From Leucobacter sp. OLIS6 (lineage in GTDB: Bacteria; Actinomycetota; Actinomycetes; Actinomycetales; Microbacteriaceae): a stretch of DNA of 64,000 bases. A model generated the notes under the pieces. It worked only from the letters and a program-made list of their open reading frames with translations. It searched no databases and was not told the DNA's origin. Positions 18,032 to 54,881 of the stretch are shown piece by piece. The DNA is taken from positions 1 through 64,000 of the forward strand of contig NZ_MRAV01000013.1 in assembly GCF_002752355.1 (NCBI RefSeq), read 5' to 3'. The translations under genes and the position numbers were made by a program. Position 1 is the first letter of the stretch, and each line of letters opens with the position of its first letter.

Positions 18032-20281
18032 TCACCAGTTCCGATTCAGCCGGTAGAGGTCGAGTTCGTCGAGGAAGTCCAGAAGATCGATTTGCGGCTT
18101 GTAGGCGTATCGATCGAGGAACGCCTGATCCTGAAGCACGGTGGGCTGGTGGCGGATCAGGTCCGCGGCACCTTCCGCGGTTTCCGTGACCAGCGGCGCG
18201 AAGTCCCGCCACATATCGGGGTAGAGGCCGCGTTCCGCTTCGAATTGCTCCGGGTCGGCGCAGTAGAGCGCTACTGGGATGCCCGAGGCGAAGCAATCGA
18301 AGACGACGGAAGAGTAATCGGACACGACCGCGTCTGAAATGAGGAGAAGGTCTTGGATGTCGAAGCTGCTCGCGTCGATACAGCGCTCATGGGCCGAGTG
18401 GCCGCCGCCGCCCAGATAATCGTGGCCGTGACTGATCACGAAGTAGTCTTCGCCGAGGACATCGGCGAGGGCCGAAGGAGCGAGCTCGTAGCTGTGGTCC
18501 TGCTCTTCCGTGGGGAGACCGTAGTTGTGATCTCGCCAGGTCGGCGCGTAGAGCACGACTTGTTTACCGTCCGGAACCTGAATCGTCGACCGGATCGACT
18601 GCTTGAGTGCCTCGTCGTCTCGGTGATCGAGGAGGAAGCGCACCCGAGGATACCCAGTCTGCAGGATCCGGGAAGCGGGGAAGAGGAACGCGGAGCTGAA
18701 CTTCTCTCGTGCTGCGTCACTGTCGGCCAGAAGATAGTCCCACTTCTGGATGTCCCGGTGCTTCACTACCTTGTGCTCGGCGCGCGCAGAGATGATGCGG
18801 GACTCGTGGCTGTCGAACAGTACACGTTTGAAGGGAGTGCCGTGCCAGAGCTGGATCCAGATGGAATCGGGGTGCTTTGGCAACTTCGGAGGAACCCATG
18901 ATTCAAGGAATACGATCGACGCCTTCGCCAAGGCCTTGCGCACCAGCGCGTGATCGGTGGGATCGATCCGCTGCGCGGGGTTGACCCGTTCGTCCTCGGT
19001 GATGAACAGACGCGGATGCGCCGCGAAGCGGGAGTCGTTCTCCAGGATTTCGAAGAGTGCGCGAGAGTTACCTGCATAGCGGTGGTCGAAACCGTAGAAG
19101 AGAAACGCGCCTTCGAGTTTCATGTCTGCCTGCTCGACTGCCGAAGAGACGAGAGCCAGAGCTTTCCGTCGTGCCCGCGCTTCGCGCTGCTGGAGGCGAA
19201 GGTTCCGGCGTTTCTTGAGGTCGTTGAGTCGCCGCTTGACTTTCGGTGCGGTCCGGTTCCGCAGCGTGATGACGCTGTGGAATAGGCGATGCCGATGCTT
19301 GGTGAATACCCCGTGGCGCACGAAGGTGCGCAGATAGTGGTTCACCGGCACATCGGCGGCGAGCTCGATCGGGAAAGCGGAGAATGCTTCGACGAAGTCG
19401 TGGGAGTACTGGGCTCGGTGCTGCGGTGGGACACGGGACGCAGAGTATTCCATGAACTTCTGCAGGTGGTACTTCGCGAAGTAGGTGAGGGTGTGAGCAG
19501 AGCGGTTCTGGAGCTTCGGGAGTGTCTCACGAATGGCGCGGATATGACCGATGGCGTGCCTGTCCGTCTGCCGGAGCATTTGCGTCGTTGAAGCTTGATT
19601 TGGTTGGATCACATACAGCGGTGAATGAATCAGGGACACTCTGGTCGCGCGATTCGCAGCGAGAACGTAGAAGGGATTGTCTTCGTAGATGTACCCCTCG
19701 CCGAACCTGAGACCGTGATGATCGAGGAATGACTTCCGATACAAGCTCGTGACCGAGAAGAAACTGACGGTGTCCATGAGCTCGTCGCATTCCGGACCTT
19801 CGAGTGTGCGTCGTCGCCAGATGTTCCGGACATTGAAATAGTTGAACGCCTTCGAACGGTGCCGCAGTGCGCTTGCGAGTTTCCAATCGAAGTGCACGAA
19901 ATCCGAGTCGTCGGCCTTCGCCCGAGCGACCGTGAGTTCGAGGGTGAGCGGTTCAAGGAAATCGTCAGCGTCGAGGAACAGGATGAAATCCCCTCGGGCG
20001 TCCTCGAGCGCGCGGTTGCGCGCGATACCTTGTCCCTGGTTCTCCTGGTCGATGATGCGGAGCCGCGGGTCGGCGGCTGCATTTCGTTCGAGGACCCGTT
20101 GGCTGCCATCGTGAGATCCGTCGTTGACAGCGATGACTTCGAGGTTTCTGTGCGTCTGCGCGAAGACCGAGTCGAGACAGCGCTGCAGGAACGGCTTAGC
20201 GTTGAACACCGGAATGATCACGGAGACCAGTGGCGATGCAAGCTGGACGCGTTGCGAGTCCTGAGAAACCGTTCTGCTCAT
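18032..20281 (-). CDS. GT2 glycosyltransferase fused to CDP-glycerol glycerophosphotransferase (TagF/TarF-like)
   Basis: 749 residues, two enzymes in one chain. The GT2 domain (about 17-330) has VSVIIPVFNAKPFLQRCL, VNDGSHDGS and FLDADDF near residue 107. The C-terminal half (about 400-735) is of the glycerophosphotransferase family: WHGTPFK near 483, YAPTWRDHNYG near 577 and SDYSSVVFDCFASGIP near 652, the conserved His and Asp/Ser regions of TagF. It could add a sugar and then glycerol- or ribitol-phosphate, building a teichoic-acid-like polymer. No CDP-glycerol synthesis gene is in the window. GC content is lower than in flanking genes. Confidence 0.88.
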   Translation of the reverse strand: MSRTVSQDSQRVQLASPLVSVIIPVFNAKPFLQRCLDSVFAQTHRNLEVIAVNDGSHDGSQRVLERNAAADPRLRIIDQENQGQGIARNRALEDARGDFILFLDADDFLEPLTLELTVARAKADDSDFVHFDWKLASALRHRSKAFNYFNVRNIWRRRTLEGPECDELMDTVSFFSVTSLYRKSFLDHHGLRFGEGYIYEDNPFYVLAANRATRVSLIHSPLYVIQPNQASTTQMLRQTDRHAIGHIRAIRETLPKLQNRSAHTLTYFAKYHLQKFMEYSASRVPPQHRAQYSHDFVEAFSAFPIELAADVPVNHYLRTFVRHGVFTKHRHRLFHSVITLRNRTAPKVKRRLNDLKKRRNLRLQQREARARRKALALVSSAVEQADMKLEGAFLFYGFDHRYAGNSRALFEILENDSRFAAHPRLFITEDERVNPAQRIDPTDHALVRKALAKASIVFLESWVPPKLPKHPDSIWIQLWHGTPFKRVLFDSHESRIISARAEHKVVKHRDIQKWDYLLADSDAAREKFSSAFLFPASRILQTGYPRVRFLLDHRDDEALKQSIRSTIQVPDGKQVVLYAPTWRDHNYGLPTEEQDHSYELAPSALADVLGEDYFVISHGHDYLGGGGHSAHERCIDASSFDIQDLLLISDAVVSDYSSVVFDCFASGIPVALYCADPEQFEAERGLYPDMWRDFAPLVTETAEGAADLIRHQPTVLQDQAFLDRYAYKPQIDLLDFLDELDLYRLNRNW

Positions 20282-20360: not shown

Positions 20361-21491
20361 TCAGTTCGCGTCGAAGCGCATGCCGCCTTCGATGGCGAAG
20401 CCGGCTGTGCCGTTCTGGAATTCCATGGTGCGCAGCTCGTAGTTCTCGAGGATGCCGCGCGGCGCCCCGACCATGAAGCCCCACGGTCCCTGTGGCCCGC
20501 CGGCCTTGCGGTACGCCGCGAGGAAGACACCCTTGCCGAGCCCGACGGTGGCGTTCTCGGCGCCGAGCCGCGAGGCGAGCGCGGTCGAGGAGGTGATCAT
20601 GCCCTTGTCGAACTCCTGCACGAACCCTCCGCCGTTCTCGGAGATCTCGAGCTGCGGGCCGAGCGGGCGGCCCCACCGCCCCGGGTCCTTGCGGTAGAGC
20701 TCGTAGATCCCGTCGACGATCGGATAGTGGTTCTCGTCCTCATCGCGGCGGGGCTTCACGAACTCGACGGCCTCGTCGATGGGCCCGTCGAAGATCATTC
20801 GCCCCTTCTCGAGCACGATGCCGCGCTCGCAGAGCTGCTGCACCTGGCTCGCGTTGTGGCTGACCACGAACATCGTCTTGCCCTGGTCCTGCAGCTCGAG
20901 CATGCGCGTCGTGCACTTCTGCCGGAACTGGGCGTCGCCGACCGAGAGGATCTCGTCGACGAGCAGCACGTCGAGTTCGGTGTGGATCGCGACCGAGAAG
21001 CCGAGGCGCGAATACATGCCCGAGGAGTAATGCTTCACCTCGGTGTCGATGAAGTCGCCGATTTCGGAGAACGCGAGGATCGAATCGAAGCGATCGTCGG
21101 TCTCCTCCTTTGACATGCCGAGGATCGCCGCGTTCAAATAGACGTTCTCGCGGCCGGTGAGGTCGGGATGGAACCCCGCACCGACCTCCAGCAGGCCGGC
21201 GATGCGGCCACGGGTGCGCACCCAGCCCTGGTCGGGCGACATCACGCCCGACAGCAGCTTGAGCGTGGTCGACTTGCCCGAGCCGTTGCGGCCGAGCAGC
21301 GCGACCGACTGCCCCTCGGGCACCGAGATGGAGATGCCGTCGAGGGCATTGAAATCGCTCGACAGCGGCTTGCGGCGCAGCGACGCGATGAACGTCTCTT
21401 TGAAGGAGTGCGTGTGCTTGATCTTGAAGGTCTTGCGCACATCGTTCAGCACGATCGCGGGACGCGGGTCGACCTCAGAGGTTCTGGGCAA
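20361..21491 (-). CDS. Polysaccharide ABC exporter ATPase (Wzt/TagH-like) with LGFP-like C-terminal domain
   Basis: 376 residues. The start is TTG 21491, supported by GGAGGGG 4 nt upstream and a 17-nt overlap with the permease gene. ABC domain: Walker A GRNGSGKST at 67-75, signature YSSGM at 155-159, Walker B LLVDE ending at E180, switch His H212. After residue 250 comes an extra domain of about 120 residues whose repeats (PGRWGRPLGPQ; RKAGGPQGPWGFMVGAP) match the LGFP repeats of the secreted protein at 27 kb. In Wzt proteins the C-terminal domain recognises the exported glycan; here an LGFP-like unit takes that position. Confidence 0.88.
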   Translation of the reverse strand: MPRTSEVDPRPAIVLNDVRKTFKIKHTHSFKETFIASLRRKPLSSDFNALDGISISVPEGQSVALLGRNGSGKSTTLKLLSGVMSPDQGWVRTRGRIAGLLEVGAGFHPDLTGRENVYLNAAILGMSKEETDDRFDSILAFSEIGDFIDTEVKHYSSGMYSRLGFSVAIHTELDVLLVDEILSVGDAQFRQKCTTRMLELQDQGKTMFVVSHNASQVQQLCERGIVLEKGRMIFDGPIDEAVEFVKPRRDEDENHYPIVDGIYELYRKDPGRWGRPLGPQLEISENGGGFVQEFDKGMITSSTALASRLGAENATVGLGKGVFLAAYRKAGGPQGPWGFMVGAPRGILENYELRTMEFQNGTAGFAIEGGMRFDAN

Positions 21492-22341
21492 AGGACCCCT
21501 CCAGTTTGCGGAAGACGAGCTGGCCGATCACGAGCGTCGCGAGCGAGATCGCGAAGCCGATGAGGACGAAGGTGAGCAGGTTGTCGGGCCGCGCCTGACT
21601 CGGCTCGAGCGGCAGCCAGAAGGCGTCGTGGAACAGCTCGACGGCTCCGGTGATCGGGTTCGACATGTAGATGTTGTAGAGCCAGAGGGGCGCCTTGTCG
21701 TGCACCATGCTCCAGACGTAGAGCACGGGCGAAGCCCAGGTGGAGAACATCAGGATCAGGTCGACGAAGTTGCGCGCGTCGCGGTACGAGACGTTGATCG
21801 CGCCGAAGAACAGCCCGAGGCCCAGCGCGAACAGCATGATGATGACCATGCCGGCGAGGAACGCGAGGATCTGCAGCCAGCCGAAGGTCCACCCGCAGAA
21901 GAGCGCGACCACGAACAGCAGCGCTGCCTGCGGGAGGAAATGGATCAGCGCGACACCGGTCGCTGCGACGGGGAAGAGTTCGCGCGGCAGGTAGATCTTC
22001 TTGATGAGCGATCGGTTGTCGACCACTGCGTTGGTCGTGTTGCGCAGCGTCTCGCTGAACAGGTTGACCGCGACGATGCCCGCGAACAGGTACACGGGGA
22101 AGAACTCCATGTTGTGGTTCGCCCGCATGATGACCCCGATGACGAGGTAGTACATGAGGAACTGAGCGCCGGGTCGCACGTAGGACCAGACCCAGCCGAG
22201 CACGGAACCGTGGTACCGCGTCGCCACGCCCTTCTTGAGCAGGAGGGAGAGGAGGTAGCGATGTCGGAAGACGTCGAACAGGCCTCGACTCGCGCCGGGG
22301 ACCCGATAGTCCGGGTCGCTCAGGACCGAAGTGTCGCTCAC
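21475..22341 (-). CDS. Polysaccharide ABC exporter permease (Wzm/TagG, ABC-2 family)
   Basis: 288 residues, GTG start, six membrane segments. Family pattern: RYLLSLLLKKGVATRYHGSV before TM1, the SVLGWVWSYVRPGAQF stretch, and FFGAINVSYRDARNFVDLI between TM4 and TM5. With the overlapping ATPase gene it forms a complete exporter that would carry an undecaprenyl-linked polymer across the membrane. A -10 box just before the GTG indicates an own leaderless promoter inside the 3' end of the LpxA-like gene. Confidence 0.9.
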   Translation of the reverse strand: MSDTSVLSDPDYRVPGASRGLFDVFRHRYLLSLLLKKGVATRYHGSVLGWVWSYVRPGAQFLMYYLVIGVIMRANHNMEFFPVYLFAGIVAVNLFSETLRNTTNAVVDNRSLIKKIYLPRELFPVAATGVALIHFLPQAALLFVVALFCGWTFGWLQILAFLAGMVIIMLFALGLGLFFGAINVSYRDARNFVDLILMFSTWASPVLYVWSMVHDKAPLWLYNIYMSNPITGAVELFHDAFWLPLEPSQARPDNLLTFVLIGFAISLATLVIGQLVFRKLEGSFAQNL

Positions 22342-22353
22342 GGTCAGATTCTA
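22342..22353 (-). promoter_or_regulatory. -10 box of a leaderless ABC-exporter transcript
   Basis: Minus strand TAGAAT (22353-22348), 6 nt, then GTG 22341. It overlaps the last codons and stop of the upstream LpxA-like gene. Confidence 0.55.
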
Positions 22354-23075
22354 TCGGCCAGGGAGGCAGGGCGGAGTTCGCCGTGGGAGCGCCACCAGGT
22401 GACGATCTCCGAGAGCTGCTCGAGCTCGGGGGCGACCCATCCGTCGACCAGCAGGTCGCCGCCGCGGTAGGCCGCGAGGAGGGCATCGGCGACCGCAGCG
22501 GGGTACCCCGCCCGGTCGAGGCCGACGGCATTGATGCCGGCGACACGGGGAGGTGTGCCGTAGACCTTCGCGAAGGGCGGCACGTCGCGGGTCACGGGCG
22601 TGCCCATGCCCACCATCGCGCCGTGCGCGATGATGCGGCGCTGGTGCACGACGGCGTTCATGCCGATGTTGACCCGGTCGCCGATAGCGCAGTGACCGCC
22701 GATGCTCACGCCGGCCGACACCGTGGAATCGGCGCCGAGCAGCACGTCGTGCGCGAGGTAGGCACGGTTCAGCACCCAGCTGCGCGCGCCGACCGTGGTC
22801 TCGCGGTAGCTGCCCTGGTGGATCACCGCGCCCTCGCGGATCACCGCACCGGCGCCGATGCGCACGCCCGCGTGCTGCAGGTCGCCCGTCCATGCGGTGT
22901 TCTGCGGCAGGTTGCTCATCTCGGGCGGTGCGCCGATCATCGCGCCGGCGCCGATCCAGGCGCCGTCCTCGATCGCACAGGGACCGAGAATCACCGCGCC
23001 GGGACCGATCGAAACGCCCTCGCCGATCTCGACGCCCTCGCCGATGAACGCGGCGGGGCTGATCGCGTCGCTCAT
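22344..23075 (-). CDS. LpxA-like UDP-sugar acyltransferase (left-handed beta-helix)
   Basis: 243 residues, ATG overlapping the dehydrogenase stop (ATGA). The first 170 residues are hexapeptide repeats. Aligned by eye with E. coli LpxA without gaps, catalytic H125 corresponds to H109 (RAYLAHD), H144 to H128 and H160 to H144 (AVVHQRRII); VTRDVPPF and INAVGLDRAGYP match the LpxA C-terminal domain. LpxA moves acyl chains from acyl carrier protein to the 3-position of UDP-GlcNAc. This organism type has no lipid A, so an acylated 3-amino sugar for surface glycan is a likelier product. M157 occupies the E. coli G173 chain-length position. Confidence 0.85.
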   Translation of the reverse strand: MSDAISPAAFIGEGVEIGEGVSIGPGAVILGPCAIEDGAWIGAGAMIGAPPEMSNLPQNTAWTGDLQHAGVRIGAGAVIREGAVIHQGSYRETTVGARSWVLNRAYLAHDVLLGADSTVSAGVSIGGHCAIGDRVNIGMNAVVHQRRIIAHGAMVGMGTPVTRDVPPFAKVYGTPPRVAGINAVGLDRAGYPAAVADALLAAYRGGDLLVDGWVAPELEQLSEIVTWWRSHGELRPASLADRI

Positions 23076-24067
23076 GCGCGCGCCGTGAGGTCCAGCGAGA
23101 CGCCGGTCTTCGCGGACTCGATCGCGGCCTCGGCGACGCGCAGGGTCTCGGTGCCCTCGCGCAGGGTGACGGCGTCGGAGCGGACACCGAGGATCGCATC
23201 GCGGAACGCCTCGTGCTCGGAGCGGAGGGGCTCGCGCTTTTCGAGGGCGAACCGCGTCACGGTGCCCTCGCTCACCCCCCGGAACGCCGCTACGGCGTCC
23301 CACGACCCGGCGTGCGTGCCGTTCTCGAAGAAGGTGAGGTCGGCGGTGAGCGTGTCGGCGACGAAGGCGCCGCGTTCGCCGGTCACGAGGGTGAGGCGTT
23401 CCTTGAACGGGGTCAGCCAGTTGACGATGTGGTTGACCATGATCCCGTTGGCGAGCTTGCCAGTGATCGAGACCATGTCCTCGTGTTCGCGCCCGGAGCG
23501 GTGCGTCGTCTGGGCGGCGAGGGTCGCGTAGTGCGACTGCGCGAGCCAGGCCGTGAGGTCGATGTCGTGGCTGCCGAGATCCTTCACGACGCCCACGTCG
23601 GCGATGCGCGCGGGGAACGGACCCTGACGGCGGGTCTGGATCTGGTAGACCTCGCCGAGGTCGCCGTTCGCGATGCGCTCGCGCAGGCTGATGAGGGCGG
23701 GGTTGAAACGCTCCACGTGGCCGACGGCCGCGACCTTTCCGGCGGCCTCGAACGCGGAGACGAGGCGCTCGGCAGCGGGGAGCTCGTGCGCCACGGGCTT
23801 CTCGATGAGCGCGTGCACGCCGGCCTCGGCCAGTGCGAGACCGACCTCCTCGTGGAACTTGGTGGGGACGGCGACGACGACCGCATCCACTCCGGCGTCG
23901 ATGAGTCCCTGCACCGAATCGAACATCGGCGTCTCGCCGGCGACGCCGTGGGGATCGCCCATCGCGTCAGCCACGGCGACGAGGTCGATGCCCTCGACCT
24001 CGCGAATCACCCGGGCGTGGTGGCGCCCCATCATGCCGAGGCCGATCAGGCCGTACTTGATCGTCAC
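23072..24067 (-). CDS. Gfo/Idh/MocA-family nucleotide-sugar dehydrogenase (GnnA/WlbA-like)
   Basis: 331 residues from GTG 24067, with GGGAG shortly upstream. The N-terminal Rossmann fold begins KYGLIGLGMMGRHHARVI; the active-site EKPVA motif is near residue 97 and HDIDLTAWL holds the catalytic His region near 170. The following gene overlaps by 4 nt and is LpxA-like. In organisms with GnnA/GnnB, such a dehydrogenase oxidises UDP-GlcNAc at C3 before amination by a DegT enzyme and acylation by LpxA; in the Wlb/Wbp route it oxidises UDP-GlcNAc uronic acid instead. The context favours the first, but the second is not excluded. Confidence 0.85.
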   Translation of the reverse strand: MTIKYGLIGLGMMGRHHARVIREVEGIDLVAVADAMGDPHGVAGETPMFDSVQGLIDAGVDAVVVAVPTKFHEEVGLALAEAGVHALIEKPVAHELPAAERLVSAFEAAGKVAAVGHVERFNPALISLRERIANGDLGEVYQIQTRRQGPFPARIADVGVVKDLGSHDIDLTAWLAQSHYATLAAQTTHRSGREHEDMVSITGKLANGIMVNHIVNWLTPFKERLTLVTGERGAFVADTLTADLTFFENGTHAGSWDAVAAFRGVSEGTVTRFALEKREPLRSEHEAFRDAILGVRSDAVTLREGTETLRVAEAAIESAKTGVSLDLTARA

Positions 24068-24113: not shown

Positions 24114-26117
24114 TCAGATTGTGCAGCCGGTGATCTTGTAGAGGACCGCTTCGCCCTGGCGATCGACCTCGGTGAGGACGTCGCTGCGCTCGACCCCCGA
24201 GATGCCCAGGTAGGGCAGGGCCCGCTTGGTTCCGGGGAACACGTACTCCCTGCCGAAGTCGAGCACGAACTCGACCCGCAGGTCATTCGCGGCCCGGCAG
24301 GCCTCGACGCTGCCGCGGTCGAGGCTCTCGGTGAGTTCGGTGATGCGCGGGTCGTAGCTGCCGCCGGTGTGCGGCACGAGCACTCGGCGATCTGCGAGCG
24401 CGTAGGCGAGCGCCCCGCCGTTCCAAGGGTTGTCTGCGATGACGGCGTCGCCGGGGACATGCTCGGGCAGACGCTCGAGCAGCGCTCGCTCGTCCGGGGT
24501 GAGCAGCCGGGACGCACTGTCGAATTCGTATTTCGAGCTGACGTAGTTCACGCCCGCAAAAGCGCCCGCGCCCTGAGTCGCCGCGAGCAGGAAGGCGGCG
24601 CCGAACAGTGCCCAGAGGGTCCGGTGCAGCGCGACGCGGGATCCACCGAACATCCGTGCCACCCGGCGGAATGCGGTGCCGGCGATGGCGGCGGCGGTGG
24701 AGGCTCCCGCGACTGCGAGCGGGATGGCGCCGAGCGGGACGAGCGCGGCGAGCCGCCACGGGTCGTTGTACCAGGGGGAGAGGAAGAAGGTGCGCCAGTC
24801 AGCAGGCGGGAAGCCGTCGGCGATCACGTAGAAGGAGATGAGGACGAACGAGACCCCGAGCAGCCACCGCCGTCCGCGGCGGGCCGCGATGAGCAGCGCT
24901 CCGAGGAGCACCAGGACGGTCACCGGCCAGTTGTGGCCCTCGAGTCTCGGCGTCGAGCCGACTGCGTCGAGTACTGCGTCGAACGGGGTCTCGTGGGAGC
25001 CGCCCCAGGGATGGTCGGAGGTGCGCCCGACGTACCAAGCGCCCCCGACGGCCGCTGCGAAGAGGGCGAGGCCCGCCACGGCGAGGACCGTGCGTGCCCC
25101 GCGCCCGATCTTCGGCTCGAGGAGCAAGCCGCTCGAGGCGGCGATGCGTCCACCGCGGATCGCGCGGATCGCAGCCGCGATGGACGGCGCCGCGAGCCAG
25201 AGCAGCAGGACATGGATTGCGTTCGGGTGCGCCAGGGTCGCCGCTCCCAGTGCGCCGAGCAGCAGGAGCCAGCGGGTGCCCGGTGCGAGCGGGTCCGCGC
25301 GCCGGGCCGGGCCGAGATCCATCAATTGCAGCGCGGCGACGAGAACGAACGGCAGGAGCGCCGTCGACAGGAGGTTCGGGTAGAGCACGCCGAACCCCGC
25401 CAGCGAGAGGGGGAAGCTGGGGAACGCCGCAGCGACGATGCCGGAGACGACCGTGGTCCGCACGTTCGGGCCCGCGACGGCGCGGCCGAGCGCGACGGCG
25501 CCGATCGGCCAGACGACGGCGCAGACGGTGAACAGGGCGGCGTTGGTCGCCAGCGGGATCGAGGCGCCCGAGAGCTGAGCGATCAGGGCGACGTAGCCGT
25601 GCCAGAGCGTCGGATAGAAGGCCGGATGACCGGGGCTCGACAGGTCCATCGCGAGCGGTGAGGCGTTCCCGGTATCGAGGATGAGGCGCACCGCGTTGAG
25701 GTGGAAGATCGCGTCGTAGGTCTGCGAGATCGCATCTGCCGACTTGAGGCTCAGGACGAGCGTCGTGGCGATCGCGGCGCCGCCGATCGCGGCGGCTCCG
25801 ACCGGGACCCAGAGCCGGTGGGGTCGAGCGGTGCGGGAGCCGTGTTCGCGCCGCGGTGCGCCGAGCCATTTTCGGAGCGCGAGCAGCACGAGCGCGAGCA
25901 GCGCTGCCAGCGCGAACGCCGGAATGATGCTCCACCGGATGCGGGCGATGCCTGCGATGAACGGTGCGAGCGCGAGTACTGCGAAGCCGGCGGGGATCGC
26001 GACGATGGCGATCGCGAAGCCGCGCAGGCGGAGCGCGAGCGCCGCCGGGAGACCGAGGATCGCGAGGATCCCGAGCGCGACGAGGAGCGGCGGTACCAGC
26101 GGCAGCCAGGCGTTCAC
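24114..26117 (-). CDS. DUF6541-like polytopic membrane protein, probable GT-C glycosyltransferase
   Basis: 667 residues, GTG start overlapping the DUF2304 stop (GTGA). At least 12 hydrophobic segments over residues 1-550 and an extracytoplasmic C-terminal domain of about 120 residues with ADNPWNGGALAYALADRR and a Cys pair. The overall build matches actinobacterial DUF6541 proteins, which resemble GT-C enzymes using polyprenyl-phosphate sugars. Together with the DPM1-like GT2 and DUF2304 protein upstream it would be the final transferase of a three-part glycosylation system. The acceptor is unknown. Confidence 0.7.
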   Translation of the reverse strand: MNAWLPLVPPLLVALGILAILGLPAALALRLRGFAIAIVAIPAGFAVLALAPFIAGIARIRWSIIPAFALAALLALVLLALRKWLGAPRREHGSRTARPHRLWVPVGAAAIGGAAIATTLVLSLKSADAISQTYDAIFHLNAVRLILDTGNASPLAMDLSSPGHPAFYPTLWHGYVALIAQLSGASIPLATNAALFTVCAVVWPIGAVALGRAVAGPNVRTTVVSGIVAAAFPSFPLSLAGFGVLYPNLLSTALLPFVLVAALQLMDLGPARRADPLAPGTRWLLLLGALGAATLAHPNAIHVLLLWLAAPSIAAAIRAIRGGRIAASSGLLLEPKIGRGARTVLAVAGLALFAAAVGGAWYVGRTSDHPWGGSHETPFDAVLDAVGSTPRLEGHNWPVTVLVLLGALLIAARRGRRWLLGVSFVLISFYVIADGFPPADWRTFFLSPWYNDPWRLAALVPLGAIPLAVAGASTAAAIAGTAFRRVARMFGGSRVALHRTLWALFGAAFLLAATQGAGAFAGVNYVSSKYEFDSASRLLTPDERALLERLPEHVPGDAVIADNPWNGGALAYALADRRVLVPHTGGSYDPRITELTESLDRGSVEACRAANDLRVEFVLDFGREYVFPGTKRALPYLGISGVERSDVLTEVDRQGEAVLYKITGCTI

Positions 26118-26488
26118 GAGCCCAGGCCGCCCTTTCGGCCGTCGCTCTCGGCCCGCTCGCGGCTGCGGGCGTCCATGAGTGCGACGGCGCGGGCGAGCTG
26201 GGTCACCCGGGCGTCACTGCGGGCCTTCGCGCGGATCGTCGCGACGGCGAAGGCCATGACGGCGATGATGAAGACGTAGAGCAGGAGGTCGGTGCCGCGT
26301 CCGATGCCGAAGAGGTGGGCGATCTCGGTCAGCACGTTCGGGAACAGGATCGCGAGCACCGCCGCGATGACGAACAGGATCGCGAAGATGCGCTTGAGTG
26401 CGAGCGAGCGCTCGCCGGGGAGGAACCGCACGGCGAGCGCCGCGACGAGGACCACGCCGAGGATGAGGAGGAGCTGGAAGATGGACAT
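26114..26488 (-). CDS. DUF2304 small membrane protein
   Basis: 124 residues with three hydrophobic segments (about 4-22, 34-56 and 68-88) followed by a charged amphipathic tail. Such proteins are regularly found beside DPM1-like GT2 genes. It lies 9 nt after the GT2 and overlaps the GT-C-like gene by 4 nt. By position it could replace GtrA as the flippase for a polyprenyl-phosphate sugar, or anchor the GT2 to the membrane. Neither role is shown by sequence. Confidence 0.75.
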   Translation of the reverse strand: MSIFQLLLILGVVLVAALAVRFLPGERSLALKRIFAILFVIAAVLAILFPNVLTEIAHLFGIGRGTDLLLYVFIIAVMAFAVATIRAKARSDARVTQLARAVALMDARSRERAESDGRKGGLGS

Positions 26489-26497
26489 GTCGCGCCC

Positions 26498-27202
26498 CTA
26501 TCGGATGATGAGGTCGATGAGGATGTTGACCGAGTTGAGCAGCGACTGCCCCTTGGCCTTGGAATACTCGCTGTAGATGACCTCGACGGGCTGCTCGGCG
26601 TAGGGGAGGCCGGTGCGGCCGAGCTGCACGACGATCTCGGTGCCGTGGGCCATGCGGTCCTGGCGGAGGCGGATCCGGCTCAGCGCGTCCTGCCGGATCA
26701 CGCGGAGACCGTTGTGCGCGTCGGTGAGCTTCGTGCGCGTGGTCCAGTTGGTGACGGCGACCGCGGTCTTGAGCACGATCTTCTTGAGGAGGCCGGGCTT
26801 CGTGCGATCGTCGAGGAAGCGGGATCCGAACACGATCGCGAGGTCCTCGGCGCGTGAACGGTCGAGCATCGCCACCGCGTCTGCGACACGGTGCTGGCCG
26901 TCCGCATCGAAGGTGACGACGTACTTCGCACCGCGCTCGAGCGCGTACTCGAAGCCGGTCTGCAGCGCCGCGCCCTGCCCCAGGTTGATGGGGTGGGTGA
27001 CGAGGCGCGCACCCGCCTCGGACGCGATCCGGCCGGAGCCGTCGCTCGACCCGTCGTCGATGCAGACGACGTTGGCGAAGTCGGGCCGGAGGCCTCGGAT
27101 CACCTCGCCGATCACCGTCGCCTCGTTGTAGAGGGGGATCACGACCCAGGTGTCGGCGTTGCCGGGAGCTGCGGTCGCGCTCGCGGGCGAAGGGTCAGTC
27201 AT
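26498..27202 (-). CDS. DPM1-like GT2 (polyprenyl-phosphate sugar synthase)
   Basis: 234 residues from ATG 27202. Typical dolichol-phosphate-mannose-synthase layout: WVVIPLYNEATVIGEVI, CIDDGSSDGSG, TFDADGQHRVADAV with DxD, and SRFLDDRTKPG. It lacks C-terminal membrane spans, which would be supplied by the DUF2304 partner. It probably transfers a hexose from a nucleotide donor to undecaprenyl or decaprenyl phosphate. First gene of the GT2-DUF2304-DUF6541 operon; its start lies 159 bp from the divergent secreted-protein gene. Confidence 0.88.
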   Translation of the reverse strand: MTDPSPASATAAPGNADTWVVIPLYNEATVIGEVIRGLRPDFANVVCIDDGSSDGSGRIASEAGARLVTHPINLGQGAALQTGFEYALERGAKYVVTFDADGQHRVADAVAMLDRSRAEDLAIVFGSRFLDDRTKPGLLKKIVLKTAVAVTNWTTRTKLTDAHNGLRVIRQDALSRIRLRQDRMAHGTEIVVQLGRTGLPYAEQPVEVIYSEYSKAKGQSLLNSVNILIDLIIR

Positions 27203-27313
27203 GTCACTTATTCTGACAGATGCGCGCTGAGCGTCGAGGACCTGCACGGAGAAGTCGCGAGCGGTGCTCCGGCTTGTGCCCGGCTGGGACAGCAGCTAGC
27301 GTGGACGCGAACC

Positions 27314-27340
27314 TTCAAGCATAACTTGAATGTTTGAGGG
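27314..27340 (+). promoter_or_regulatory. Inverted repeat upstream of the secreted LGFP/CWB2 protein
   Basis: TTCAAG-CATAA-CTTGAA (27314-27330) is a perfect 6-bp dyad with a 5-nt centre, followed by TGTTTGAGG. TAACTT at 27322-27327 could be the -10 box. A related TCAAG-N5-CTTGA-N2-GTTT layout occurs before whiB at 60311. Confidence 0.45.
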
Positions 27341-27360
27341 CAACAGGAGGGAAGCGCGGG

Positions 27361-30291
27361 ATGGCGCCGAAACGACCGATCGCGCGTCTGCGCGCCCTGC
27401 TCGCGCTCGCGGTCGGGGTCGGTCTGCTCGCCGCTCCCCTCGCCGCGGTCGCGCCCGCGCAGGCCGCTCCCGTCGTCGGCTTCGAGGCCGGCAACATCAT
27501 CGCGGATTCCGTCTTCTACAACGGCAATGCTCTGACTGCGGCGCAGGTGCAGACATTCCTGAACGGTCAGGTGCCGCGCTGCACGATCGGGGATCCCGGC
27601 CGGGCGCCCGGCACACCGATGTACGGCTCCACCGTTGCGAAATCCTGCCTGCGCAACTTCACCATGAGTACGTCGAGTCGCGCCGCCAACGCCTACTGCT
27701 CCGCCTATCCGGGCGCCGCGAACGAATCGGCCGCGGCGATCATCGCAAAGGTGGGAAAGGCCTGCGGGATCAGCCAGAAGGTCCTGCTCGTCATGCTCGA
27801 GAAGGAGCAGAGCCTCGTCGGGGACACCTGGCCGACCGTCCGCCAGTTCGACGTCGCCATGGGATACGCCTGCCCCGACTCGGGCCCGAACAACTCGGCG
27901 AACTGCGATCCGACGCAGACGGGCTTCTATCAGCAGGTCTACCGCGCTGCCTGGCAGCTCAAGGTCTACAAGGCGTTCCCGAACGACTACAACTACCGGC
28001 CGTCGCGGAACAACACGATCCAATGGCACCCGAACGCCGGGTGCGGCACCTCTCAGGTGTACATCCAGAACTGGGCGACCGCGGCCCTCTACATCTACAC
28101 GCCCTACCGGCCGAACCAGGCAGCGCTCAACGCGGGGTGGGGCACGGGTGACGCCTGCTCGTCGTACGGCAACCGGAACTTCTACAACTTCTTCAAGACC
28201 TGGTTCGGCAGCACGCAGCTGCCCTACTCGGTCGACGGCGGGATCCTCTCCTACTGGCAGGCCAACAACGGCTGGTTGGGCGCTCCGACCGCCGCGCCCG
28301 TGTCGAGCACCGCCAACGGGGGCGGACGTTCGCAGCAGTTCGCGGGCGGCATCGTCTACGAACCGAAGAGCGGACAGCCGGCGGGCATGACCCGTACGAG
28401 CCCGCTGTTCATCGCCTACGGCAATGCCGGCGGCCCGGCCGGATCCTGGGGATGGCCGCTCTCTCCCGGAGTCAATCAGGGCGGTTCCGGCAACACGGTG
28501 ATGCGCTTCCAGTCGGGCTCCGTGGTCGAGGCCAAGGGCGTCGGCGTGTTCCTGATCCCCGAAGCGCTTCGCGTCGCCTGGGAGCAGAGCGGCGGGTTCA
28601 ACGGGTCCGTCGGCTATCCGCTGAAGAACTCGGCGAAGTCGCCGAGCGGTGCGCTGGGGCAGGACTTCAAGAAGGGCACCATCGTCTCCACCGGCGTCGG
28701 CGGCGCACGCGTCGTCGACGCGCGCTTCCTGGCCGCCTGGCGCGCGCTCGGCGGGCTCTCGGCTGCCGCGGGCGTTCCTGTCGGCGCGCCGGTGGCGAGC
28801 ACCGCGAACGGCGGCGGGACGACCTACCCGCTGCAGTTCGGCACGATGTACCTCTCGCCCGGCGGATCATCGACCCTCGTCGCCGGTCGATACCGCACGG
28901 CCTACGATGCGACGGGCGGGGTCGGGGGAGCATTCGGCTGGCCCGTCGGACCCATGCAGTGCCAGCTCGCCGAAGACGGATGTGCGACCCCGTTCCAGTT
29001 CGGGGTCGGGCTGTGGAGCGGCGCCTCTGGGCTCGTGAAGGTCTCGCCGAAGACCTACGCGGCGTGGAAGCCGAGCGCAGCGAAGCTCGGATACCCGAAG
29101 ACGCCCGCCACGGCCGTCGGCACAGGCGCATCCGCGGGCACCGTGCAGCGTTTCGCCGCCGGTGACGTCTACGAGTCGAAGGCCGGCGCGTTCGTGCTGC
29201 CCGATGGCAAGCTCCGCGACGGATACCTGGCCGCGGGTGGGCCGACCGGGCCGTGGGGGTGGCCGACGGGCGCCGTGACCTGCGCTGCCGACGGCAGCCG
29301 GTGCTCCATGCCCTTCGCGACGGGTACCGCGACCTGGACCGCGACCGGCGGGCTGGACTTCGTCAAGGACCTGCAGGGCGTGCCCAAGCAGCGGATCAGC
29401 GGCGGCGACCGGTTCGATACCGCGGTCGAGGCCTCGAAGGCGGGCTACCCCACGGCGGCCGGAACCGTGCTCATCGCGAACGGCCTCGACTACCCCGACG
29501 CGCTGAGCGCCGGTGCGCTCGGCGCGAAGTGGAAGGCCCCGCTGCTCCTCGCGCGCCCGTCGAGCCTGCCCGCGTCGACGCGGGCCGAGATCGTGCGGCT
29601 CAAGCCGAATCGCATCGTCGTGGTCGGAGGGGCCGGGGCCGTGAGCGACGGCGTCGTCGCCGAGCTCAAGAAGCTCGCCGCACGGGTGGATCGGGTCTCG
29701 GGCCCCGACCGCTATGCCACCTCGATCGCCATCGCGCAGCAGGGGTGGTCGAAGGGGACCGCTTCGCAGGCCTTCCTCGCAACGGGGACCGGTTTCGCCG
29801 ACGCGCTCGCCGCGGGTGCCGCGGCCGGCGTAGTGAATGCGCCGGTACTGCTCGTGCCCGGAAACGCGAGCAGCGCCCCGGCTTCCGTGACCGCGGAGCT
29901 CTCCCGACTCGGGGCCACTCAGGTGCGCATCGCGGGCGGCACCGGTGCCGTCTCCGCCGGCATCCAGAACTCGGTCGCCGCGGGTCGCTCGGTGGTGCGG
30001 TACGCGGGGACCGACCGCTACGACACGTCGGCGCGCATCGCGAACGGCATCATCGCGAAGGGTGCCGGAGTCGACGTGTACTGGGCGAACGGCCTCGGAT
30101 TCGCCGATGCGCTCGCGGGAGGCGCGGTCGCCGGTTCGCGAGGCGCGCCGCTGCTGCTCACCACGTCGAGCTGCGTTCCGGGCTCCGTCTTCGACGCGAC
30201 GGGCCGGGTCGTGGGGAATCGGATCCTGCTGCTGGGCGGTGCGGGCGTGCTCGACGGCGGCGTGCTCGCCGGGCGGCGCTGCCAGTCCTGA
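27361..30291 (+). CDS. Secreted lysozyme-like, LGFP-repeat and CWB2 cell-wall protein
   Basis: 976 residues from ATG 27361, with AGGAGG at 27345-27350 (a TTG at 27334 is less likely). Signal peptide about 1-36. Residues 37-280 form a Cys-containing domain common in secreted actinobacterial proteins; ISQKVLLVMLEKEQSLVGD with a candidate catalytic Glu recalls the lysozyme-like fold of lytic transglycosylases. About 285-665 hold LGFP repeats (AGGPAGSWGWPLSPG; AAGGPTGPWGWP). About 672-976 hold three CWB2 repeats starting RISGGDRFDTAVEAS. It should be bound to the cell wall and may cut or remodel peptidoglycan. Confidence 0.82.
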   Translation: MAPKRPIARLRALLALAVGVGLLAAPLAAVAPAQAAPVVGFEAGNIIADSVFYNGNALTAAQVQTFLNGQVPRCTIGDPGRAPGTPMYGSTVAKSCLRNFTMSTSSRAANAYCSAYPGAANESAAAIIAKVGKACGISQKVLLVMLEKEQSLVGDTWPTVRQFDVAMGYACPDSGPNNSANCDPTQTGFYQQVYRAAWQLKVYKAFPNDYNYRPSRNNTIQWHPNAGCGTSQVYIQNWATAALYIYTPYRPNQAALNAGWGTGDACSSYGNRNFYNFFKTWFGSTQLPYSVDGGILSYWQANNGWLGAPTAAPVSSTANGGGRSQQFAGGIVYEPKSGQPAGMTRTSPLFIAYGNAGGPAGSWGWPLSPGVNQGGSGNTVMRFQSGSVVEAKGVGVFLIPEALRVAWEQSGGFNGSVGYPLKNSAKSPSGALGQDFKKGTIVSTGVGGARVVDARFLAAWRALGGLSAAAGVPVGAPVASTANGGGTTYPLQFGTMYLSPGGSSTLVAGRYRTAYDATGGVGGAFGWPVGPMQCQLAEDGCATPFQFGVGLWSGASGLVKVSPKTYAAWKPSAAKLGYPKTPATAVGTGASAGTVQRFAAGDVYESKAGAFVLPDGKLRDGYLAAGGPTGPWGWPTGAVTCAADGSRCSMPFATGTATWTATGGLDFVKDLQGVPKQRISGGDRFDTAVEASKAGYPTAAGTVLIANGLDYPDALSAGALGAKWKAPLLLARPSSLPASTRAEIVRLKPNRIVVVGGAGAVSDGVVAELKKLAARVDRVSGPDRYATSIAIAQQGWSKGTASQAFLATGTGFADALAAGAAAGVVNAPVLLVPGNASSAPASVTAELSRLGATQVRIAGGTGAVSAGIQNSVAAGRSVVRYAGTDRYDTSARIANGIIAKGAGVDVYWANGLGFADALAGGAVAGSRGAPLLLTTSSCVPGSVFDATGRVVGNRILLLGGAGVLDGGVLAGRRCQS

Positions 30292-30445: not shown

Positions 30446-32164
30446 ATGATTCAGAGAAAGTCCGCGTTCGCGGTCGCAGCGATCGCGAGCTGCGCACTGA
30501 TCGCCGGCCTGGCGACCCCCGCATGGGCGGAGGACGCGGCGCCGCAGCCGATCGCGCCGCAGCCGACCGCTCCGGCCGAGACGCCGGATGCCGGGAACGC
30601 CGCGCCGGAGAGCCCCGCCGCCGAGGCTTCGACCCCGGACGCCCCGGCTGCCGATGCACCGGCGGCGACCTCGCCGGCCCCCGCTGCGCCCGATGCGCCG
30701 GCGCAGGCCCCGTTCGGATCGATCGGCACGCAGATCGGAGAGCGCTTTGCGAGCGTCGCGGGCGATCCCGAGATGGGTGCCGCGGGCTACCAGAACGGCA
30801 CACGCAACGCGCGGATCGCCGGTGATGATCGATTCTCGACGGCCGTTGCGGTGTCGAAGCACGGATACCCGACCACAGCGGCGACCGTCATTGTCGCCAA
30901 CGGGCTGAACTACCCGGACGCGCTCAGTGCCGGAGCGCTCGGCGCGAAGTGGAAGGCGCCCCTGCTCCTCACGCAGCCCGGTGCGCTTCCCGCGTCGACC
31001 AAGGCCGAGATCGCGCGGCTCAAGCCGAGCAAGATCGTCGTCGTCGGCGGCATCGGCGCGGTGAGCGCAGGCGTGGTCAAGACGCTCAAGGGCCTCGCCG
31101 GCAACGTCGAGCGCGTGTCGGGTGCTGACCGCTATTCGACCTCCATCGCCATCGCTCAGGCCGGTTGGCCGGCGGGCGCGGCGAGCAACGTGTTCCTGGC
31201 GACCGGCACCAACTTCGCCGATGCGCTCGCGGCCGGTGCTGCGGGTGGCAAGCTCAAAGCTCCGGTCCTGCTCGTACCGGGCAACGCCGGTTCCGCTCCC
31301 GCCCCCGTCAAGGCCGAGCTCTCCCGGCTCGGCGCGACCAAGGTCCGCATCGCGGGCGGCACGGGAGCGGTCTCGACCGGGGTGCAGAAGTCGATCGCCT
31401 CGAACCGGACCGTCGTGCGCTACGCCGGAGGCGACCGCTTCGACACCTCGGCACGCATCGCGAACGACACCGGGATCTACCCGTCGAATCCGCAGGTGAA
31501 CACCTACTGGGCGAACGGCCTCGGCTTCGCCGACGCGCTCGCGGGCGGCGCCGTCGCAGGGGCGAAGGGATCGCCCCTGCTGCTCTCGACGCCGAGCTGC
31601 GTCACCTCCAGCGTCTACACCGCGAACGACCGAGTCGCGGGGGCCAACACCTACCTCCTCGGCGGAGCGGGTGCGCTCGGCAACACCGTGCTGTGGGGCA
31701 ACGAGTGCATGAAGGCTCCGGCCGGCGCGAACGCGACCAACGCCAGCGGGATGCAGTGGCTCTACAACCAGATCAACGCCAAACGCTACGCGGCGAACCT
31801 GTCGGGCTTCCGCCTCGGCGACTCCACGACCTGGGCCGGTCACGCGACCGGTACCCCCGCCTACAGCTGGGCGCTGCGCAACCGGACGAACCGCAGCTAC
31901 GCCGCGAACCCCGCTCTCGGCACCCAGCAGCCGTGGGTGGAGTACGAGATCACCGGCCGCCACAACACCTACGGGGGGAAGAGTCACCTGACGAACACCT
32001 GGAACGGCTTCATGTCCGACTCCACGATCAAGAGCCAGATCCTGGTGCCGACGCCCAACGTCCGCGGCGTTGTCAGCGTCGGGTACGCGGTGACGGCGAA
32101 CGAACCGGGCTACGGCGCAGTCGGCTACAGCGTGATCTACATTGGGGCCGTCGACCAGAGCTGA
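30446..32164 (+). CDS. Secreted CWB2 protein with unassigned C-terminal domain
   Basis: 572 residues. Signal peptide ending near ATPAWAED (about residue 28), an Ala/Pro-rich linker to about 95, three CWB2 repeats (about 123-420; ARIAGDDRFSTAVAV, RVSGADRYSTSIAIA, VRYAGGDRFDTSARIA), then a C-terminal domain of about 145 residues with MQWLYNQINAKRYAANLSG and VSVGYAVTANEPGYG. The latter loosely resembles a CAP/SCP domain, but the His/Glu set is not clear. The repeats are closely similar to those of the preceding gene at protein and DNA level, indicating tandem duplication or gene conversion. Confidence 0.8.
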   Translation: MIQRKSAFAVAAIASCALIAGLATPAWAEDAAPQPIAPQPTAPAETPDAGNAAPESPAAEASTPDAPAADAPAATSPAPAAPDAPAQAPFGSIGTQIGERFASVAGDPEMGAAGYQNGTRNARIAGDDRFSTAVAVSKHGYPTTAATVIVANGLNYPDALSAGALGAKWKAPLLLTQPGALPASTKAEIARLKPSKIVVVGGIGAVSAGVVKTLKGLAGNVERVSGADRYSTSIAIAQAGWPAGAASNVFLATGTNFADALAAGAAGGKLKAPVLLVPGNAGSAPAPVKAELSRLGATKVRIAGGTGAVSTGVQKSIASNRTVVRYAGGDRFDTSARIANDTGIYPSNPQVNTYWANGLGFADALAGGAVAGAKGSPLLLSTPSCVTSSVYTANDRVAGANTYLLGGAGALGNTVLWGNECMKAPAGANATNASGMQWLYNQINAKRYAANLSGFRLGDSTTWAGHATGTPAYSWALRNRTNRSYAANPALGTQQPWVEYEITGRHNTYGGKSHLTNTWNGFMSDSTIKSQILVPTPNVRGVVSVGYAVTANEPGYGAVGYSVIYIGAVDQS

Positions 32165-32316: not shown

Positions 32317-33429
32317 ATGGCACCCGAGTTCATCCCTGCAGCGAAGCCCATCATCGGCGACGAGGAGCGCGCGGCCGTCGACCGCGTGCTGCGCTCCGGC
32401 ATGATCGCTCAGGGCCCCGAGGTGAAGACCTTCGAGCAGGAGTTCGCCGAGCACTTCGTGCAGGGACGCACCACGGTCGCCGTCAACTCGGGCACCAGCG
32501 GTCAGCACCTCGGGCTCCTCGCCGCGGGCGTCGGCCCGGGCGACGAGGTCATCGTGCCGTCGTTCACCTTCGCCGCGACGGGCAACTCGGTCGCGCTCAC
32601 CGGGGCGACCCCGGTATTCGTCGACATCGAGCCCGACTTCTTCACGCTCGATCCCGAGTCGGTGCGCGCTGCGATCACGCCGCGCACCAAGGGGATCATG
32701 CCCGTGCATCTCTACGGGCACCCGTTCCTGGTCGACCAGATCGAGGCCATCGCGCAGGAGCACGGCCTCGCGATCTACGAGGACGCGGCGCAGGCGCACG
32801 GCGCGAGCTGGGACGGCCGTCCGGTCGGCACCCTCGGCGCGTTCGCCATGTTCAGCCTCTATCCGACCAAGAACATGACGTCGGGCGAGGGCGGCATGGT
32901 CACCTGCTCCACCGAGGAGATCGCCCGGCAGATGCGCCTGCTGCGCAACCAGGGCATGGAGACCCAGTACGCGAACGAGGTCATCGGCTTCAACACCCGC
33001 ATGACGGACATCCACGCGGCGATCGGCCGCGTGCAGCTGACCAAGGTCGACGGCTGGACCGCGCAGCGTCAGCGGAACGCCGCCGCGCTGAACGCGGGCC
33101 TCGCCGACATCGCGGGCGTGCAGACGCCGAAGGTCCACGAGAACGCCGTGCACGTGTACCACCAGTACACGGTCCGACTCGACGCTGGTGAGCGCGATCG
33201 CATCCACACCGCGCTGAAGGAGGAGCACGGTGTCGGCTCGGGCGTCTACTACCCGATCCCGAACCACCGACTGCCCTCGCTCGCGCGCTTCGCTCCGGGG
33301 CTCGACCTGCCCGAGACCGAGCGGGCCGCCCGCGAGGTGCTCTCGCTGCCGGTCCACCCGTCGCTCACCGAGGGCGATCTCGAGCGCATCGTGACCGCGG
33401 TCTCCGCGGTCGTGCGTGCCGGACGGTGA
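32317..33429 (+). CDS. DegT/DnrJ/EryC1 sugar aminotransferase (GnnB/WlbC-like)
   Basis: 370 residues from ATG 32317, preceded by GAAAGG; a -10 box TATTCT lies at 32263-32268. PLP-dependent aminotransfer to a keto-sugar nucleotide. Motifs: VNSGTSGQHLGLLA, EDAAQAHGASWDG, and the PLP Lys in SLYPTKNMTSGEGGM; FNTRMTDIHAAIGRVQL near residue 228 is typical of the VioA/WlbC branch. It heads an operon with a GT, an ABC flippase and a second GT, joined by 4-nt overlaps. A 3-keto product of the Gfo/Idh dehydrogenase at 23 kb would be a fitting substrate. Confidence 0.92.
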   Translation: MAPEFIPAAKPIIGDEERAAVDRVLRSGMIAQGPEVKTFEQEFAEHFVQGRTTVAVNSGTSGQHLGLLAAGVGPGDEVIVPSFTFAATGNSVALTGATPVFVDIEPDFFTLDPESVRAAITPRTKGIMPVHLYGHPFLVDQIEAIAQEHGLAIYEDAAQAHGASWDGRPVGTLGAFAMFSLYPTKNMTSGEGGMVTCSTEEIARQMRLLRNQGMETQYANEVIGFNTRMTDIHAAIGRVQLTKVDGWTAQRQRNAAALNAGLADIAGVQTPKVHENAVHVYHQYTVRLDAGERDRIHTALKEEHGVGSGVYYPIPNHRLPSLARFAPGLDLPETERAAREVLSLPVHPSLTEGDLERIVTAVSAVVRAGR

Positions 33430-48371: not shown

Positions 48372-49637
<1,266 letters not shown>

Positions 49638-54803: not shown

Positions 54804-54881
54804 CGGGGGAGTACGCGACCTTTCGGGTTCGTCCAGCGACGCGGACGGGCCGCGACGATACGGCATCGTACCGTGCCGAGA

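Follow-up and report, generated by a model that had tools for sequence, protein, structure and literature searches.

A GnnA-type dehydrogenase, a DegT aminotransferase and an LpxA-fold acyltransferase: a probable gene set for a 2,3-diamino sugar in an actinobacterial wall polysaccharide locus

In Acidithiobacillus ferrooxidans and Leptospira, the enzymes GnnA and GnnB together with LpxA provide UDP-GlcNAc3N, the 3-amino derivative of UDP-N-acetylglucosamine (UDP-GlcNAc), for lipid A, and the LpxA of Leptospira uses this amino sugar nucleotide. Here we analyse a comparable gene set in a stretch of 64,000 nt (the window, GC 70%) of the 3.33 Mb genome of Leucobacter sp. OLIS6. The set is like GnnA/GnnB (+ LpxA) in that GnnA is the nearest solved relative of its dehydrogenase, P0002 (23072-24067, minus strand, 331 aa), in that a DegT/DnrJ/EryC1 aminotransferase (32317-33429, plus strand) is its partner, and in that the acyl step falls to a protein of LpxA fold, P0001 (22344-23075, minus strand, 243 aa). 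Unlike those systems, it lies within an actinobacterial locus for wall polysaccharide, LpxC finds no match in the genome, and the acyltransferase falls, in the best trees, outside the group of LpxA rows and carries bulky residues in its acyl groove. We consider it probable that the set leads from UDP-GlcNAc through UDP-GlcNAc3N to an N-acetylated, or otherwise short-acyl, 2,3-diamino sugar destined for a wall glycan, probably by a PpgS-like polyprenyl-phosphate route.

Related sugars have been described in other walls and glycans. According to PMC13274773, the teichuronic acids of Streptomyces contain GlcNAc3NAcA and ManNAc3NAcA. The Utr pathway described there is alike in that an actinobacterial wall polymer receives 2,3-diacetamido sugars, and its predicted genes encode an aminotransferase, an oxidase, an acetyltransferase and a UDP-sugar dehydrogenase; it differs in being likened by that paper to the acid pathway of Pseudomonas aeruginosa, with a 6-dehydrogenase and a 2-epimerase. 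Diacetamido uronic acids are thus known from Streptomyces walls, and the novelty that the initial annotation of this DNA had seen in an acylated 3-amino sugar of a Gram-positive wall polymer is not supported; the present set is a variant on a published theme. In a literature search with most subscription journals outside its scope, we found no description of an actinobacterial LpxA-like enzyme of this kind, of GlcNAc3NAc in Microbacteriaceae or of a GnnA-like and LpxA-fold set in actinobacteria, and P0001 had no match in five large-genome rows (g91) of our phylum search, whose identity as Streptomyces is a guess. In Methanococcus a diacetamido sugar is made with the acetyltransferase MMP0350, as reported in PMC2952790. 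That archaeal GlcNAc3NAcA pathway is alike in that its UDP-GlcNAc 3-dehydrogenase model is the best for P0002, and differs in that its sugar goes to a flagellin N-glycan, not a wall polymer, and in that P0002 scores 224 bits where the cut-off is 450.

A first question is whether the three genes belong together. Loci were gathered by the acyltransferase alone, with two peptide patterns and in named genomes, and are not a census; the best 80 of 87 relatives gave 79 loci, of which 73 (L034-L106) are actinobacterial. Of the 73, 29 come from Leucobacter or Canibacter, near-copies (three from Rhodococcus, for example) are included, some lie at contig ends, and one member each of four pairs with identical acyltransferases (L028/L059, L029/L060, L030/L062, L032/L102), which occur twice in the sample, is among them. 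Within about 10 kb of the acyltransferase, or up to the contig end, a Gfo/Idh/MocA (Gfo) gene is present in 58/73 loci, a DegT gene of at least 40% identity in 60/73 (at least 60% identity in 57/73), and both together in 52/73. By arithmetic from the genome totals, six Gfo-family matches and one strong DegT in 3.33 Mb, a random 20-kb stretch is expected to hold a Gfo gene in about 4% of cases and a DegT gene in less than 1%. A chance cluster is ruled out by these linkage counts, and the proposal that dehydrogenase, DegT enzyme and LpxA-like protein form one set, first made from the sequence of the window, is borne out. Likewise, the two genes said to overlap do so by 4 nt (ATGA; junction sequence GCGCATGAGC), and the DegT gene said to lie 8 kb away is separated from the dehydrogenase by about 8.2 kb and from the operon's first gene by 5.1 kb.

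The Gfo partner is of two kinds. Type A, the window's own (at least 61% identity), is found in 22/73 loci, of which 19 also have PpgS at 50% identity or more. Type B is found in 36/73, in Rhodococcus, Blastococcus, Cellulomonas, Agromyces, Cryobacterium and others, and is 22-31% identical to P0002 in the aligned rows. Where a type B locus holds the complete trio (DegT at least 55%), DegT is divergent from the acyltransferase and adjoins the Gfo gene in 32/32, with 0-75 nt between the matches in 31 and 488 nt in one. A divergent arrangement recurs around PpgS: of 88 loci, 27 have PpgS at 50% or more together with DegT at 70% or more (both members of pairs L028/L059 and L029/L060 counted), the two genes are divergent in 26 of these, and their match starts lie less than 1.5 kb apart in 15. 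In the window, two CWB2 wall-binding proteins (27334-30291 and 30446-32164, plus strand) are encoded between the operon and DegT, and these account for the 8 kb spacing, which is most simply a recurring divergent gene pair pushed apart by the CWB2 genes. An acyltransferase without an adjoining type A Gfo gene occurs in ten Leucobacter loci among the 73, and in L026 from another genus. Other Gfo-family genes are present in all 11 of these genomes, and in 4/4 examined regions without type A a type B Gfo gene shares the polysaccharide region with the acyltransferase at a distance of 13-17 kb, its product being 56-59% identical to the type B Gfo of Naasia. Since one Gfo enzyme stands in for another to which it is not orthologous, within one superfamily, the need for a sugar dehydrogenase is well supported.

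These arrangements bear on a rival explanation, in which there is no common pathway: the acyltransferase would act on another amino sugar, and the linkage would reflect nothing but shared wall loci. The opposite strand of DegT and the loci with neither partner nearby would fit such a case, but both partners are present in 52/73 loci, the divergent order recurs with types A and B, and the non-orthologous Gfo replacement also speaks against it. We give this explanation very little credence. In the Lentzea loci L064, L065 and L067, the acyltransferase adjoins Glf and GlfT2, with no Gfo or DegT gene within 10 kb.

P0002 has the Pfam domain GFO_IDH_MocA, and its nearest sequence in the PDB is 7bvj (81.4 bits, next match 72.8), the title of which reads UDP-N-acetylglucosamine 3-dehydrogenase GnnA of A. 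ferrooxidans. The uronic acid pathway enzyme WlbA (3q2k) reaches 52 bits. With a 41-row profile the spread widens to 172.4 bits for 7bvj, 127.9 for the next match and 84 for WlbA. GnnA ranks second of the 50 matches listed in a fold search, among many Gfo enzymes, and the top NCBIfam model is UDP-GlcNAc 3-dehydrogenase, an archaeal equivalog model that is also the best for four other Gfo proteins (three type B, one type A), all under its cut-off. These comparisons uphold the suggestion of a GnnA-like rather than WlbA-like dehydrogenase, and P0002 is most likely GnnA-type, a candidate UDP-GlcNAc 3-dehydrogenase. The DegT protein is the sole strong one of the genome (match at 32350-33402, plus strand, 420 bits; runner-up 32 bits) and is a candidate GnnB-like 3-aminotransferase.

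The acyltransferase P0001 is 92% identical to that of Leucobacter sp. Ag1 and has the Pfam domains Hexapep and Acetyltransf_11, the LpxA C-terminal domain (34.8 bits, cut-off 24.5). LpxA is its top NCBIfam model, at 147.4 bits against a cut-off of 226 and 140.8 against 231. Its best PDB sequence match is 8e62 (96 bits), followed by Leptospira LpxA (84), other LpxA proteins (61-79), VioB (47) and QdtC (42). By its title, 8e62 is the Psychrobacter cryohalolentis protein Pcryo_0615, an N-acetyltransferase for a diacetamido-2,3- sugar; it is 35% identical to P0001 and shorter (189 aa against 243 aa). The predicted structure of P0001 (predicted local distance difference test score 95.7, monomer model) has the LpxA fold with C-terminal helices. 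In Foldseek the best LpxA chain has template modelling scores of 0.76 (query) and 0.73 (target), and Pcryo_0615 of 0.63 (query) and 0.82 (target).

Trees were built of 53 and 43 rows, the partial sequence of QdtC being dropped from both; the smaller was also made without LpxD, the Saprospiraceae row, WxcM and seven actinobacterial rows. Four WlbB/WxcM-like rows split from all others with support 100/100, and the four LpxA rows form a group of their own (100/78 with 53 rows, 100/99 with 43); LpxD, a very long branch, joined them in the larger tree (89/80). In both best trees the actinobacterial rows stand beside Pcryo_0615, a weakly supported position (90/73 if the Saprospiraceae row is included, 62/0 if it is not). 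By these comparisons the acyltransferase is probably not LpxA proper, and it is not of the WlbB kind. A WlbB/WxcM-type acetyltransferase is ruled out both by the split and by BLAST scores (WlbB 38.5 bits, Pcryo_0615 107 bits; QdtC was compared too, at 32 bits), FdtC being outside the comparison, and the clustering with WlbB-type enzymes that the initial annotation had named as the outcome that would count against it is not what the phylogeny gives. The Saprospiraceae protein L107 has similar groove residues (L and M), which suggests that a predicted acyltransferase of this type is also found in Bacteroidota.

The residues of the acyl groove were compared in an alignment of 64 rows (63 distinct, the window included) drawn from 85 proteins (84 loci and the window), in Escherichia coli LpxA numbering. 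H125, D126, H160, Q161 and N198 are conserved in 64/64 rows, H144 in 63/64 and R204 in 61/64. Position 155 is bulky throughout (M 48, L 13, I 2, V 1), position 173 is M in 64/64 and position 122 is Y in 61/64; four LpxA rows compared with them have H at 122. P0001 itself has Y122, M155 and M173, and it shares Y122, M155, R162 and M173 with Pcryo_0615. In seven LpxA sequences (one of them a metagenome-assembled genome relative, L108; three read by eye from alignments), position 155 is G (6) or A (1) and position 173 is G (6) or M (1). With the change G173M, E. coli LpxA becomes a C10 instead of a C14 enzyme, and G155, M170 and G173 of the E. coli protein hydrogen-bond an active-site peptide, as reported in PMC6408518. 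The spacing of 18 residues between 155 and 173 is taken as one coil, and residue 155 presumably limits the groove as well. With bulky residues at both positions, we read the groove as too short for a fatty chain; the group transferred would therefore be acetyl or another short acyl group, and a fatty acyl chain on the sugar is unlikely.

What, then, would the pathway be? Beyond the gene set, its linkage, the predicted fold, the family placement and the residues, which are observed, we infer substrate, acyl donor, step order and the fate of the product. P0002 would oxidise UDP-GlcNAc at C3, the DegT enzyme would add an amino group there to give UDP-GlcNAc3N, and P0001, probably a UDP-GlcNAc3N 3-N-acetyltransferase, would transfer a short acyl group, in all likelihood acetyl, to this amino group, yielding UDP-2,3-diacetamido-2,3-dideoxyglucose (UDP-GlcNAc3NAc). 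The genes for P0002 and P0001 belong to a minus-strand run of seven closely spaced genes, from 27247 down to 20361. At its front, in one operon, stand a PpgS-like glycosyltransferase family 2 (GT2) gene, predicted to encode a polyprenyl-phosphate sugar synthase (26498-27247; 264.8 bits against a PpgS cut-off of 370), a gene for a small DUF2304 membrane protein (26114-26488) and one for a DUF6541 membrane protein (24114-26117). We presume Rv3632 and Rv3779 to be carriers of the DUF2304 and DUF6541 domains, and by that presumed likeness the DUF6541 protein is a candidate polyprenyl-phosphate-sugar-dependent transferase. In loci with type A Gfo, the PpgS-like enzyme would probably load the sugar onto polyprenyl phosphate and the DUF2304 protein would help the lipid-linked sugar across the membrane. 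The DUF6541 protein would then put it on a wall polymer exported by the adjoining ATP-binding cassette (ABC) pair, a Wzm/TagG-like ABC-2 permease (21475-22341, minus strand) and a Wzt/TagH-like ATPase (20361-21491, minus strand, start approximate). From operon order alone, these proteins probably use the sugar of the set.

The front of the operon has a described counterpart. In the scheme of PMC9671496, Rv3779 moves a lipid-linked sugar onto mycobacterial arabinogalactan as galactosamine, and a related corynebacterial set includes ppgS. The PpgS-like, DUF2304 and DUF6541 genes are alike in the two systems, which differ in that here they are coupled to the Gfo and acyltransferase genes and in that the PpgS score is under its cut-off. 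Given this coupling, the sugar here is probably not GalNAc.

Several observations weigh against the pathway from UDP-GlcNAc to UDP-GlcNAc3NAc. P0002, at 223.7 bits, is below the UDP-GlcNAc 3-dehydrogenase cut-off of 450, the database matches of the DegT protein do not fix the sugar position on which it acts, and 7/73 loci have neither Gfo nor DegT nearby. Among the 36 type B loci, PpgS at 50% or more is found in none, DUF2304 in none and DUF6541 in one. P0001 retains part of the LpxA C-terminal domain, its BLAST scores are a near-tie between Pcryo_0615 (107 bits) and Leptospira LpxA (106 bits), and Foldseek places 26 LpxA chains ahead of Pcryo_0615, the 27th. A grouping of the actinobacterial rows with LpxA to the exclusion of 8e62 is not rejected (approximately unbiased test, p 0.41), and P. 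aeruginosa LpxA likewise has M at 173. Pcryo_0615 itself serves, by the title of its reference, a pathway to a uronic acid, and among 54 Leucobacter genomes a 6-dehydrogenase is present in 26/29 with type A Gfo against 4/25 without.

The likeness to LpxA is what would favour a lipid reading, in which UDP-GlcNAc3N receives a medium or long (3-hydroxy)acyl chain from acyl carrier protein, the outcome being either a lipid-modified wall glycan or a Gram-positive glycolipid. The fold with its C-terminal helices, the top NCBIfam model and the leading Foldseek matches are those of LpxA, and Leptospira LpxA, close by BLAST, is selective for its sugar nucleotide by its PDB title. But the scores lie far below the LpxA cut-offs, positions 155 and 173 are bulky in 64/64 rows, as in Pcryo_0615, and LpxC was not found in the genome (0 matches, the same search being positive in 4/14 control genomes). 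We regard this outcome as very unlikely. The statement that the organism has no lipid A holds for this single marker, and a lipid A pathway is set aside on LpxC alone, with LpxB, LpxD and LpxK outside the search. LpxA in the sense of lipid acylation, as first proposed for P0001, is thus not supported: the protein scores under the model cut-offs, does not fall among the LpxA rows of the best trees, and has bulky residues at 155 and 173.

Is the sugar neutral, or does it end as an acid? The window encodes a UDP-sugar 6-dehydrogenase of the UDP-HexNAc kind (40886-42175, plus strand), with UDP-ManNAc-type dehydrogenase and Cap5O as nearest relatives. In the Wbp order this enzyme would act first, at C6, and 3-oxidation, amination and N-acetylation would follow, giving UDP-GlcNAc3NAcA for a teichuronic-type unit. 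Its favour comes from the place of the 6-dehydrogenase inside the locus as the only PF00984 match of the genome, from its tie to type A Gfo in Leucobacter given above, from the origin of Pcryo_0615, the nearest solved acyltransferase, in a uronic acid pathway, and from the GlcNAc3NAcA of Streptomyces walls (PMC13274773). Against it, the dehydrogenase is nearer GnnA than WlbA, the acyltransferase is not WlbB-like, and 3/28 Leucobacter genomes with type A Gfo and the acyltransferase have no 6-dehydrogenase. Both Epimerase_2 genes of the genome, two in all, lie on other contigs, although a 2-epimerase would be needed for the manno form only. In a survey of 45 of the 46 carrier genomes (L105 left out), a close 6-dehydrogenase (E 1e-60) is found in 20, namely 19/27 of Leucobacter and Canibacter and 1/18 of the others, and is absent from 25, including 17 of the 18 outside these two genera. 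Since a close homologue occurs in only 20/45 carriers, the three-gene set needs no 6-dehydrogenase in general. The tie within Leucobacter has a raw Fisher p of 0.005 on 28 rows, but on the tree of these rows it comes down to no more than 1 independent contrast (starred branches) or 4 (all branches), so that it settles nothing. We consider the acid order possible but rather unlikely. Following the neutral pathway that we favour, the 6-dehydrogenase may still oxidise its product in a later step, and the sugar of the window may end as a uronic acid. As expected for an acid branch, three Leucobacter genomes (L145, 10.0-12.5 kb; G153:C52; G156:C19) carry a Gfo gene directly beside the 6-dehydrogenase; it was verified as type B in L145 alone.

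The surroundings are those of a polysaccharide locus. Besides the two CWB2 proteins between operon and DegT, a third is encoded at 42261-45404, and one of the three has LGFP repeats too; in Clostridioides difficile, CWB2 binds an anionic wall polymer, as described in PMC4973711. Adjoining the exporter, a single protein with GT2 and CDP-glycerol glycerophosphotransferase domains (18032-20281) suggests a polyol-phosphate polymer. A galactofuranose polymer is probable, given a UDP-galactopyranose mutase (48483-49637) and a GlfT2-like galactofuranosyltransferase (52893-54866) in the window. Downstream of DegT lies a second polysaccharide ABC transporter, PglK/MsbA-like (34340-36379), a relative of which at 40% identity or more is found in 18/73 loci.

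How widespread is the acyltransferase? Counting the organism's own genome each time, it is present in 43/54 Leucobacter genomes (E 1e-30), in 10/150 genomes of the family (E 1e-20) and in at least 4/396 of the phylum (E 1e-25), this last figure being a lower bound with seven candidates scored per genome. A more far-reaching proposal would see here an actinobacterial LpxA-fold family of UDP-GlcNAc3N N-acyltransferases in its own right, coupled to a GnnA-type dehydrogenase and making a neutral 2,3-diamino sugar for polyprenyl-phosphate-based wall decoration, with some members using a longer acyl chain to give a lipid-modified wall glycan; taken as a whole, we hold this to be very unlikely. In Corynebacterium, phage Cog requires the ppgS system, and wall glycans of the phylum can be phage receptors (PMC9671496); an unusual wall sugar is therefore worth direct analysis. 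The neutral pathway would make the three genes a portable diamino-sugar module of actinobacterial wall loci. The bulky residues at 155 and 173 form a residue signature by which sugar N-acetyltransferases may be told apart from lipid A enzymes. The set as a whole suggests that the annotation 'LpxA' in a Gram-positive genome need not imply lipid A chemistry.

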